Of a stretch of 64,000 bases of DNA, positions 753-4,266 are shown piece after piece; position 1 is the first letter of the stretch, and every line of letters begins with the position of its first letter. The notes below the pieces were generated by a model that saw only the letters and a program-made list of their open reading frames with translations, searched no databases and had not been told where the DNA came from. The stretch lies in contig JAOEUK010000001.1 of the NCBI GenBank assembly GCA_028382965.1, positions 62,001-126,000 of the forward strand, given 5' to 3'. The stretch is from Candidatus Puniceispirillum sp. Its GTDB lineage: Bacteria > Pseudomonadota > Alphaproteobacteria > Puniceispirillales > Puniceispirillaceae. Both the position numbers and the translations under genes were made by a program.

Positions 753-2272
753 TGGTGTTCGGCTGGCTGCCCATGATTCGCGCCCTATCACGACTGCCAA
801 ATATTGCTTGGCATCTAGGCCGCGCCGGCGTTCTGGGGCATATGGCAAATATCAGTATGTTACCAAGCTGGCTGAGACAAACTTGTAGGCTACTTGATAG
901 AGCTGTGCGCTCGCGGCGTGCGGTCAAGGATGCCGGCGATGCATTATGTCAGGCTCTTGTCCGGCTTGGACCAGGCTTTATTAAATTTGGACAGGCACTA
1001 TCAACCCGTTCAGATTTAATTGGTCCTGAACTCGGCCGGTCATTAGCAATGCTGCAAGACAGGTTACCTCCATTTGCTGCAGCACACGCACGCCAGATTG
1101 TAGTCAACCAAACAGGGCAGTCAATTGAGAATCTGTTTAAACAATTTAATGATGAAGCCGTTGCTGCCGCCTCAATTGCCCAGGTGCACCGCGCCACACT
1201 GGTTGATGGGCGGGCGGTTGCTGTGAAATTATTACGACCAAATATTGAGAAACGCATGCAGGCCGACACTGCCCTTTTCTATTCACTTGCACAGATTATT
1301 GAATGGCTAGCGCCAGGTATCCAACGGCTCCATCTAGTGACAGCTGTTCGCCAATTTCGCCAATTATCCGAAATGGAGCTGGATTTGCGCCTTGAAGCAG
1401 CGGCGGCAGGGCGTTTGGCCGACAATATGCAAAATGATGAGGGCATTTATATTCCATGGGTTGATCTTGAAAATAGTACCAGACAAATGCTGATTATTGA
1501 ATGGGTGGATGGCATTCGCATTGATGATGTCGCCAGCCTTACTAAAGCTTCACATGATGTTGAAAAAATCACTGAGTATGCGGCACGCAGCTTTTTTAAT
1601 CAGGTGTTTCGTGATGGCTATTTCCATGCCGATATGCACCCAGGCAATATTTTTGTTCGGCCTGATGGCACCCTTGTACCAATTGACTTTGGAATAATGG
1701 GCTATCTCGATTTCCATGACCGACTATTTCTGGCACGTCTTCTTAGTGCCATGCTTGACCGCGATTATGATATGGTTGCTTCTCTTCATAAGGATGCGGG
1801 CATGCTTGGCGAAGCTGTGTCAATTCATCAATTCTCACAATCAGTGCGGGCTGTGGCTGATCCAGTTATGGGCAAAGCACTTGGTGATGTGTCACTTGGC
1901 CTTGTTCTTGGGCAAATTTTTCAGCTAGCTACCCGATTTGAAATCGAAGTTCAGCCTCAGTTCAACTTGTTGCAAAAAACTATGGTGATGGCCGAAGGTG
2001 TGGCCCGACAGCTTAACCCTACCGCTGATATGTGGCAACTATCGCGCCCTCTTGCCGATGACTGGATGCAGAATCAAGCTAATGTAAAAACACAAGCCAC
2101 ACAGCTATTTAATGAGGTAACACAAGTCCTGTCTCGCTTGCCAAAAATTATTAATGATTTTGAAAAGAGCCAAAAAGAATACCCACTTCCCAAACCACCC
2201 GTCTGGCCGGGACGTATTGCGCTTATGGCACTTTTTCTTGCCCTTATTAGTTTTTTCACAAGGACGCACTAA
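752..2272 (+). CDS. ubiB: UbiB, ABC1/ADCK-type atypical kinase/ATPase for ubiquinone synthesis
   Basis: Membrane-associated kinase-like ATPase needed for ubiquinone biosynthesis. Starting at ATG 752 gives 506 residues. A TTG 30 bases upstream is also in frame, but the ATG overlaps the ubiE stop as TGATG and is the better choice. Seen: the family KxGQxxS motif (KFGQALSTR, about 78-86), a VAVKLLRP lysine strand, the catalytic HADMHPGN loop near 292, the PIDFG metal-binding motif near 310, and a hydrophobic C-terminal segment (IALMALFLALISFF) expected to be the membrane anchor. Alphaproteobacterial gene order ubiE-ubiB-coaBC-dut is kept. Confidence 0.95.
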   Translation: MVFGWLPMIRALSRLPNIAWHLGRAGVLGHMANISMLPSWLRQTCRLLDRAVRSRRAVKDAGDALCQALVRLGPGFIKFGQALSTRSDLIGPELGRSLAMLQDRLPPFAAAHARQIVVNQTGQSIENLFKQFNDEAVAAASIAQVHRATLVDGRAVAVKLLRPNIEKRMQADTALFYSLAQIIEWLAPGIQRLHLVTAVRQFRQLSEMELDLRLEAAAAGRLADNMQNDEGIYIPWVDLENSTRQMLIIEWVDGIRIDDVASLTKASHDVEKITEYAARSFFNQVFRDGYFHADMHPGNIFVRPDGTLVPIDFGIMGYLDFHDRLFLARLLSAMLDRDYDMVASLHKDAGMLGEAVSIHQFSQSVRAVADPVMGKALGDVSLGLVLGQIFQLATRFEIEVQPQFNLLQKTMVMAEGVARQLNPTADMWQLSRPLADDWMQNQANVKTQATQLFNEVTQVLSRLPKIINDFEKSQKEYPLPKPPVWPGRIALMALFLALISFFTRTH

Positions 2273-2347
2273 ATATTTAATATATTTGAATTTTTGTGAA
2301 AAAAAATATACCATTATTAATTATTTATTTTTAAAAAAGTTGGTTTT

Positions 2348-3820
2348 GTGAATTTATTAGCAATTATCACAGCATTGGGAGGACGAGCCGCTCTTCAAGA
2401 GCTTTTAGGTGTTGGGCCAAGCGCCATAAGTAATTATATTACGCGCGGTCATTTACCAAATCGTGCCAAGCCAATTATTTATTCCACCTTAATCGCCAAG
2501 GGCTTTCAAGTGCAAGCAGATGATCTAGAAATTTTAGCAGCCCCAACAAAGTCCAAAAACTCAGACATGATAGCCCGTTCCAACCCAAATATTCTTCTGA
2601 TCGTGTCCGGCGGGATTGCAGCTTATAAGGCACTGGAAACTACTCGGCAATTGCAACAACTTGGGGCAAGTGTCACAGGTGTGATGACCGAGGGTGCAAA
2701 ACAGTTTATAACCACACTAAGCCTTGCTGCACTGACAAATAAAAAATGCTATGACACCTTATTCTCACTTACCGACGAAGCTGAAATGGGCCACATCCAA
2801 CTTGCCCGATCTGCCGATTTGATTCTAGTAGTTCCAGCAACAGCCAATTTTATGGCGCGTGCTAACGCTGGCATTGCCGATGATCTTGCCACTACCATTT
2901 TGCTGGCAACCACAGCAAAGGTTGCGATGGCACCGGCAATGAATCCTTCTATGTGGGAGCATCCAGCCACCAAAAAAAATTTTGCTAGCCTGGTTCAGCG
3001 CGGCGTTCATATGATTGGGCCAGTTAGTGGTGATACGGCATGCGGAGAGAAAGGCGAAGGTCGCCTATGCGAGCCAAACGATATTGCCCATGCCGCCATG
3101 AAGATTATCACCGCGGCACCTAACAAAACGTCCATAACCAGTGAGAAAACTACCGCACTCACCGGCAAACGCATTATCATCACATCAGGCCCTACAATTG
3201 AGCCAATAGATAAGGTAAGGTTTATTGTCAACCGTTCATCGGGCAAGCAAGGCCACGCCATTGCCGCCACACTGGCAGACCGCGGGGCAGAGGTAACGCT
3301 GATTAGTGGGCCAGTTAATGAAGCGCCACCCAATCATGTTAAATTAGTTCCAGTAACAACAGCAGCTGAAATGCTTGCCGCTTGTATGAATGCTATAACC
3401 ACCCTACCAACCGATATTGCTATTTGCGCTGCTGCTGTCGCAGATTGGCGGGTGGTGTCAACAGCGTCAACAAAACTCAAAAAGCCCGATGATCCTCTAG
3501 CCAAAATGACTTTGGAGCTTTGTCAAAACCCCGATATTTTGGCTAGCATTTCTGCCAGCCCAAACCGGCCAAAGCTGGTGGTCGGTTTTGCGGCAGAAAC
3601 TGAAAATTTACTCAAGAATGCTAGCGCTAAACGACAGCGCAAAGGATGTGACTGGATAATTGCCAATCAGGTTGGTGATGATGATGATCCAGTTTTTGGG
3701 AGCACTACAAACAAGGCTTTGATAATCAATGGATTGAGCGTTAAAACTTGGCCAAAAATGCAAAAGACTGAACTGGCTGAAAAGCTGTCTGACCTTATTG
3801 AAAAAGAGTTTTTAGAATGA
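2348..3820 (+). CDS. coaBC: CoaBC (Dfp) with an extra N-terminal helix-turn-helix domain
   Basis: Bifunctional phosphopantothenoylcysteine decarboxylase / phosphopantothenate-cysteine ligase of coenzyme A synthesis. CoaC half, about 78-250: the SGGIAAYK flavin loop, MGHIQLAR with the catalytic His, PAMNPSMW, and [11 protein letters not shown] with the active-site Cys. CoaB half, about 265-490: [11 protein letters not shown] and a KLKK lysine region. The GTG start at 2348 gives 490 residues, 70-90 more than usual. Residues 1-62 look like a Cro/YdaS-type HTH ([19 protein letters not shown], then a [11 protein letters not shown] recognition segment). An internal ATG at 2567 would give ordinary CoaBC but has no Shine-Dalgarno sequence. 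The 3' end overlaps dut as ATGA. Enzyme identity is firm; the HTH role is inference. Confidence 0.93.
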
Positions 3821-4266
3821 ATTTAATCTCAGTTAAATTCCGACGTCTTGTCCATGGAAGCGATTTAGAATTACCCTCATATGCAAGTATGGGTGCAGCA
3901 GGAATGGACCTTGCCGCCGCCCTCAACCAGCCAGCATGCATCCAACCAGGATCAAGACTAGCAGTTCCAACAGGCTTCGCGATGGCCTTGCCGGAAGGTT
4001 ATGAAGCTCAGGTGCGACCCCGCTCAGGATTAGCCTTAAAACATGGGGTTACAATTGCCAATGCACCCGGTACCATTGATAGTGACTATCGTGGCGAAAT
4101 TACAGTAATTCTGCTAAATGCGGGCACCGACGACTTTATAATTACACGAGGAATGCGCATTGCCCAAATGGTCATTGCTACCGTAACTATAATAACCCCC
4201 ATCGAAGCCAATGATTTGGATGACACCAAACGCGGAGCTGATGGCTTTGGATCAACAGGCTTGTGA
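3817..4266 (+). CDS. dut: dUTP diphosphatase (dUTPase)
   Basis: Hydrolyses dUTP to dUMP and pyrophosphate, keeping uracil out of DNA and feeding dTMP synthesis. The 149 residues are the normal length of the trimeric enzyme, and all five motifs are visible: AGMDLAAA (near 28), [11 protein letters not shown] (near 67), [14 protein letters not shown] with the catalytic Asp and Tyr (near 83), RIAQM (near 114) and the C-terminal lid [10 protein letters not shown]. The start ATG overlaps the coaBC stop, so the two are translationally coupled, a pairing long known from the dfp-dut order in many bacteria. Confidence 0.97.

Follow-up and report, generated by a model that had tools for sequence, protein, structure and literature searches.

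The coaBC locus and its N-terminal domain

The DNA analyzed here, referred to as the window, is a 64,000-nucleotide stretch of the forward strand of a contig from Candidatus Puniceispirillum sp. Downstream of ubiB it carries a coaBC gene whose open frame extends N-terminally beyond the CoaC flavoprotein and CoaB domains, followed by dut, which is probably co-transcribed with coaBC (Table 1). When searched against Pfam, the window's CoaBC matched PF02441 at residues 81-249 and PF04127 at residues 271-460, and it passed the TIGR00521 (CoaBC) cut-off with 403.3 bits versus 219.7 over residues 79-484. The first-pass annotation of this DNA had proposed that a helix-turn-helix (HTH) domain is fused to the N-terminus of the enzyme; the open frame, the profile matches, and conservation across the order confirmed the fusion of an N-terminal HTH to a complete CoaBC. 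A CoaBC match was found in 54 of 61 relatives, one per genome, making it likely that both enzyme activities are present in the window's protein.

Table 1 Features of the window (first eleven rows) and of loci in other genomes.
Feature	Location	Strand	Remarks
HTH-CoaBC fusion gene	2348..3820	+	GTG start, 490 aa, stop included; frame open
Cro-type HTH domain (predicted), residues 1-64	2348..2539	+	Profile match and AF2 model
Predicted recognition helix, residues 24-33	2417..2446	+	DSSP on AF2 models (H24-33)
Arg33, last residue of predicted recognition helix	2444-2446	+	
Variable linker, residues 65-78	2540..2581	+	Length and sequence differ among relatives; low pLDDT
CoaC flavoprotein and CoaB (DFP), residues 79-490	2582..3817	+	PF02441, PF04127, TIGR00521
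dut	3817..4266	+	PF00692; overlaps coaBC stop
Candidate operator core TTTGAATTTTTGTGAA	2285..2300	+	Direct repeat, 10-base step
TGTGAA half-site overlapping GTG start codon	2347..2352	+	
TTCACA inside ubiB 3' end	2255..2260	+	Either a half-site or a hexamer resembling a -35 element; not distinguishable from coding constraint
-10-like hexamer TAATAT	2278..2283	+	17 bases after TTCACA
Second palindrome in f3	L082 2484, L083 2527, L084 2486		
HTH-HisZ loci	L095, L096, L153, others in L176-L214		f22 and f53, PS1-clade and other MAGs; TTCAT palindromes upstream
HTH-CarA loci	L216, L217, L218		Family f30; palindromes upstream of most copies
HTH-PyrB	L225 201-1388		21-base palindrome upstream (one genome)
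HTH-SerA	L227 191-1987		
HTH-crotonyl-CoA carboxylase/reductase (Ccr)	L100 1492-3075		

By profile and by predicted model, residues 1-64 are a Cro-type HTH. A 25-member alignment of the domain, A1, found Xfaso 1 Cro (PDB 3bd1) with a profile E of 2.5e-10, and this solved Cro protein was also the best structural match (VIA Z 7.0, rmsd 1.9, 57 residues; with the full-length model, VIA's listing is confined to residues 77-490), with Foldseek returning an E of only 0.12 at a probability of 0.98-0.99. When residues 1-67 were modeled alone by AlphaFold2, the mean pLDDT was 91.7; in the full protein, block means were 87-93 at residues 1-60 and pLDDT fell below 50 at linker residues 68-77. Helices were predicted at residues 3-10, 13-20, 24-33, and 38/40-50, plus a short strand, and seven residues (G11, G12, L20, A26, S28, N29, and P37) were invariant in the 25 aligned members. 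The HTH earlier read from the letters was thus borne out by structure prediction and by the profile search against HTH families. It had been called Cro/YdaS-type, and the Cro part of that assignment stood, while membership among the YdaS toxins was rejected at 18.2 bits against a PF15943 gathering cut-off of 30. Like phage Cro, of which Xfaso 1 Cro is the nearest, the window's domain has a predicted helical HTH fold with a beta part; phage Cro is a free-standing repressor, whereas the window's domain is the N-terminal part of an enzyme.

A second known family is related by profile. The NCBIfam model carph-isopro (NF046037) matched 25 of 25 A1 members with E values up to 0.1 (best, 5.2e-12), and its domain is likewise found N-terminally on enzymes, here CarA, PyrB, SerA, and Ccr. 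The curated cut-off of 38 was missed by the window's segment (27.6-28.2 bits) and by the whole protein (24.1 bits), and by profile the window's domain is a related subgroup of carph-isopro, not a member by the curated rule. The name carph-isopro did not occur in the literature searched.

Conservation of the fusion

In the 61 relatives, 51 of the 54 CoaBC matches aligned from residues 1-9 of the query, and the remaining three (G033, G058, and G060) began at a contig end. The survey of N-termini in related genomes found the extension in frame wherever it was not cut short, and in the 50 loci examined it was free of stops except in those cut by contig ends. The named loci with the fusion belong to the SAR116 cluster and to Candidatus Puniceispirillum. 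The first-pass annotation had noted that a stop or separate start near 2567 would speak for an extension that is untranslated or joined to the enzyme by sequencing error. The window itself lends something to this reading, having a GTG start and a weak ribosome-binding sequence. However, no such stop or start was conserved among relatives' loci, including the ATG near 2567, and the frame was kept in relatives from three other families. It was also present in four genomes that consist of a single contig (G004, G020, G037, and G043), which rules out an assembly join. A sequencing-error join or untranslated leader was rejected for the order as a whole by the in-frame extension in relatives, and we regard an artefact as exceedingly improbable.

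The HTH profile matched 110 of 136 genomes of the order SAR116/Puniceispirillales, two of the 110 matches (G008 and G350) being short and doubtful. Matched genomes included 42 of 43 of good quality and represented 20 of 20 genera. The G008 match (G008:C2:35183-35254) was a weak, short HTH match only, in a good-quality genome of the same genus without a CoaBC match; its missing CoaBC is possibly a gap in the assembly. Outside the order, among the matches listed from 289 genomes of the class (a set that includes 3 genomes of the order itself), CoaBC matches lacked the HTH, starting at query residue 51 or later. An HTH-CoaBC fusion was not found in the titles and abstract openings of the openly accessible literature searched.

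The ratio dN/dS for the HTH codons was 0.03-0.21 in 7 of 8 pairs, synonymous sites being saturated in the eighth, and this comparison indicates that the codons are under purifying selection. Such selection argues against a decayed remnant that no longer binds DNA or serves only as an oligomerization or regulatory surface, as do the seven invariant residues, the Cro-like model at high confidence, and the conserved upstream sites described below. Scores under the curated Pfam and NCBIfam cut-offs are what could be cited for a remnant, which we consider very unlikely.

Half-sites upstream of genes carrying the domain

The regions upstream of HTH-coaBC bear TTCACA/TGTGAA half-sites. In 61 genomes (about 125 Mb), exact TTCACA-N0-5-TGTGAA occurred at 42 distinct places, and 15 of these lay no more than 200 bp upstream of HTH-coaBC. 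By spacer, 10 of 15 N3 places and 5 of 6 N4 places were before HTH-coaBC (15 of 21 together), versus 0 of 21 with other spacers. The palindromes before HTH-coaBC span 8 genera of families f1-f3, lie 16-59 bases before the start of the match, and were found in 6 of 8 loci of f2, 3 of 3 of f3, and 5 of 18 of the other f1 loci; exact palindromes were found in 0 of 13 loci of the window's genus, 0 of 10 in f4, and 0 of 27 outgroup coaBC upstreams. These upstreams supplied the pattern, so that the counts demonstrate specificity without amounting to an unbiased test; the binomial figure of 6e-57 for palindrome placement ignores relatedness and is not a clean test, the patterns having been read from the upstreams before the genome-wide counts. 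Related genomes are not independent.

Half-sites outnumbered those in shuffled sequence in the other f1 loci (48 vs 2.6), in f2 (25 vs 1.1), and in the window's genus (12 vs 1.3, part of them within the ubiB coding sequence), compared with 1 vs 1.5 for outgroup coaBC. Where palindromes are lacking, half-sites recur in direct orientation with helical spacing, namely 10, 19-20, and 32 bases in f1-f3 and 11 and 19-20 bases in f4. With single-base shuffles, and with related species counted separately, an offset of 10 was seen in 36 pairs vs 0.36 in shuffles (relaxed TTCA, 54 loci, f1-f3) and an offset of 11 in f4 in 17 pairs vs 0.02 (29 loci).

Exact palindromes also occur at other genes; in f3, a second one lies between ShlB/FhaC-type (TpsB) and haemagglutinin-like (TpsA) genes. 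The genes near the six exact N3/N4 sites not associated with coaBC (L082-L087) were TpsB/TpsA, UDP-sugar-type dehydrogenase or TPR-type, and prenyl-synthase-type or restriction-type, identities other than TpsB being judged from translations. No recognized CoA gene was near these six loci, and a CoA regulon was rejected.

An operator had been placed by the first-pass annotation in the AT-rich spacer at 2273-2347 of the window. The spacer does hold the TTTGAATTTTTGTGAA block, which is alignable over 12 loci of the genus and retained with substitutions; the window lacks a perfect palindrome and has only this direct repeat, and among the operators compared, the window's own candidate is the weakest. 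The repeat sits beyond the -10-like hexamer, itself a consensus match only (3 found vs 0.9 expected). The TGTGAA half-site at the start codon is present in L001-L009 (9/9) and absent from L010-L012. In these 9 of 9 close relatives the GTG start codon forms part of the half-site, and the rare start may be held in place by the operator. A search of 2100-2700 against Rfam found no RNA at E 1 or below, and a known RNA leader upstream of coaBC was rejected.

The A1 search matched 54 of 289 genomes of the class, and several matches were the same domain on other proteins, namely HisZ, Ccr, CarA, PyrB, and SerA. HTH-HisZ, assigned through Pfam tRNA-synt_His with the NCBIfam HisZ models below cut-off, was found in 24 of 28 f22 genomes and 15 of 18 f53 genomes. 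In f53, 29 of 33 places with TTCATA-N3-TATGAA were before HTH-hisZ; this palindrome differs from the putative CoaBC operator by one base per half-site and has the same spacer. It was absent from the three f53 genomes without an HTH match, and the reversed-pattern control gave no places in f53. For HTH-carA, the pattern TGGGAW-N5-WTCCCA, chosen using two f30 genomes, was present at 65 places in 60 f30 genomes, 50 of them no more than 250 bp before HTH-carA, and it preceded the gene in 40 of the 56 f30 genomes in which HTH-carA was located; the reversed-pattern control gave 11 places. In single-contig G490, the CarA match begins only at residue 84, and the genome has no site. Upstream of HTH-SerA there was no palindrome with arms of at least 6.

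A related domain type, 'TVQGWK', was seen on mitofilin-like coiled-coil membrane proteins (L219-L224, L226, L228-L233, L106, and L107), the mitofilin-like identity being our reading of the translations; at L106 and L107 the domain is read through from a hemD-like frame. A free-standing 87-amino-acid protein of the same type is encoded at L146 763-1023 in a Deltaproteobacteria MAG, with TTCAAGTAACTTGAA upstream.

The residue at position 33 was tallied against the half-site base, with three contig-end rows dropped. CoaBCs with Arg33 had at least one TTCAC in 42 of 42 loci and 110 TTCAC vs 38 TTCAT in all, compared with 6 TTCAC vs 139 TTCAT for CoaBCs lacking Arg33 (29 loci). HisZ loci in which residue 33 is L, Q, or K had mainly TTCAT, and those with D mainly TTCAA. 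A simple one-residue code based on Arg33 was rejected, since four Lys33 CoaBCs (L118, L123, L126, and L128) retain TTCAC; Lys33 in HisZ goes with TTCAT. Because of these four proteins, and because Arg33 tracks the family tree within CoaBC, the link between residue 33 and the half-site base is no more than suggestive.

It could be supposed that the upstream repeats are the operator of some other, unlinked regulator and that the HTH serves elsewhere, for example by holding the enzyme on the nucleoid, as the HTH and the sites are linked by co-occurrence only. We consider this unlikely, given that palindromes are missing from 27 of 27 outgroup coaBC upstreams, that HisZ and CarA, when fused to a domain of this family, each have a different palindrome before their own genes, and that residue 33 and the half-site base vary together.

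A proposed autoregulatory role and its parallels

The above considerations make it quite probable that HTH-CoaBC is an enzyme-repressor that limits its own synthesis in the manner of BirA. Computation established the fusion, its predicted fold, its conservation, and the position and phasing of the sites; we infer from these that the HTH would bind the sites and that binding would repress. Enzyme and DNA-binding domain reside in one chain, and operator-like sites are conserved at the gene itself in relatives, with a weaker direct repeat in the window. The first-pass annotation had raised regulation by the enzyme of its own operon, a possibility that draws its support from comparison: palindromes in 8 genera of f1-f3 and in 0 of 27 outgroups, and the similar behavior of the HisZ and CarA fusions.

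Several HTHs displayed on a CoaBC oligomer would bind TTCAC-type half-sites over the coaBC promoter, whether these form palindromes or recur at a distance of one or two helical turns, and as the enzyme accumulates, transcription of coaBC, and probably also of dut, would fall. In the simplest outcome, coaBC and the dut gene that overlaps it would be under negative autoregulation. Mycobacterium has a dodecameric CoaBC built around a CoaC core (PMC7794376). If the SAR116 enzyme resembles it, twelve flexibly tethered HTHs could engage a number of half-sites simultaneously, and this would account for the occurrence of palindromes as well as phased direct repeats.

Both CoA and CoA thioesters inhibit the mycobacterial enzyme (PMC7794376), so that a ligand signal would exist in the enzyme part. 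A tentative alternative, somewhat less probable than not, is that the fused HTH is an activator or a metabolite-switched regulator, with CoA or acyl-CoA on CoaB altering DNA binding. The sites lie near the start codon and, in the window, past the -10-like hexamer, a placement that repression fits better. Metabolite coupling of HTH-CoaBC is possible within the autorepressor proposal as well.

We give roughly even chances to a broader reading that takes in CoaBC, HisZ, CarA, PyrB, SerA, and Ccr. In this reading, alphaproteobacterial biosynthetic enzymes have repeatedly had a portable Cro-type domain grafted onto them, each thereby coming to repress itself through an operator of its own, and the CoaBC oligomer would read helically phased half-site arrays while its active sites sense CoA status. 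If so, these proteins would constitute a general class in which feedback is wired into enzymes. In an order of abundant marine bacteria, transcriptional feedback appears to be built into the enzyme itself. Were this true, enzyme, sensor, and operator would be available in one testable gene, and recurrence on histidine, arginine/pyrimidine, and other enzymes would provide natural replicates of the passage from enzyme to regulator, showing how operator specificity follows the recognition helix.

PutA and NadR each combine a metabolic enzyme and a DNA-binding domain in one polypeptide and control genes of their pathways; they differ from HTH-CoaBC in DNA-binding fold and pathway. In BzdR, an N-terminal HTH precedes a shikimate-kinase-like, enzyme-derived domain (PMC3602430), a layout like that of HTH-CoaBC. 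BzdR has lost enzyme activity (PMC3602430), whereas no CoaBC other than the fused one was found, and its family score is retained. A parallel in manner of working is BirA, the Group II biotin protein ligase of E. coli and B. subtilis, in which an N-terminal HTH is carried by a cofactor enzyme that also represses (PMC4016012), as proposed for HTH-CoaBC. BirA has another type of HTH and represses biotin genes, while HTH-CoaBC has a predicted Cro-type HTH and candidate sites before its own gene. By this analogy, we propose that HTH-CoaBC works like BirA without being a member of the BirA family.
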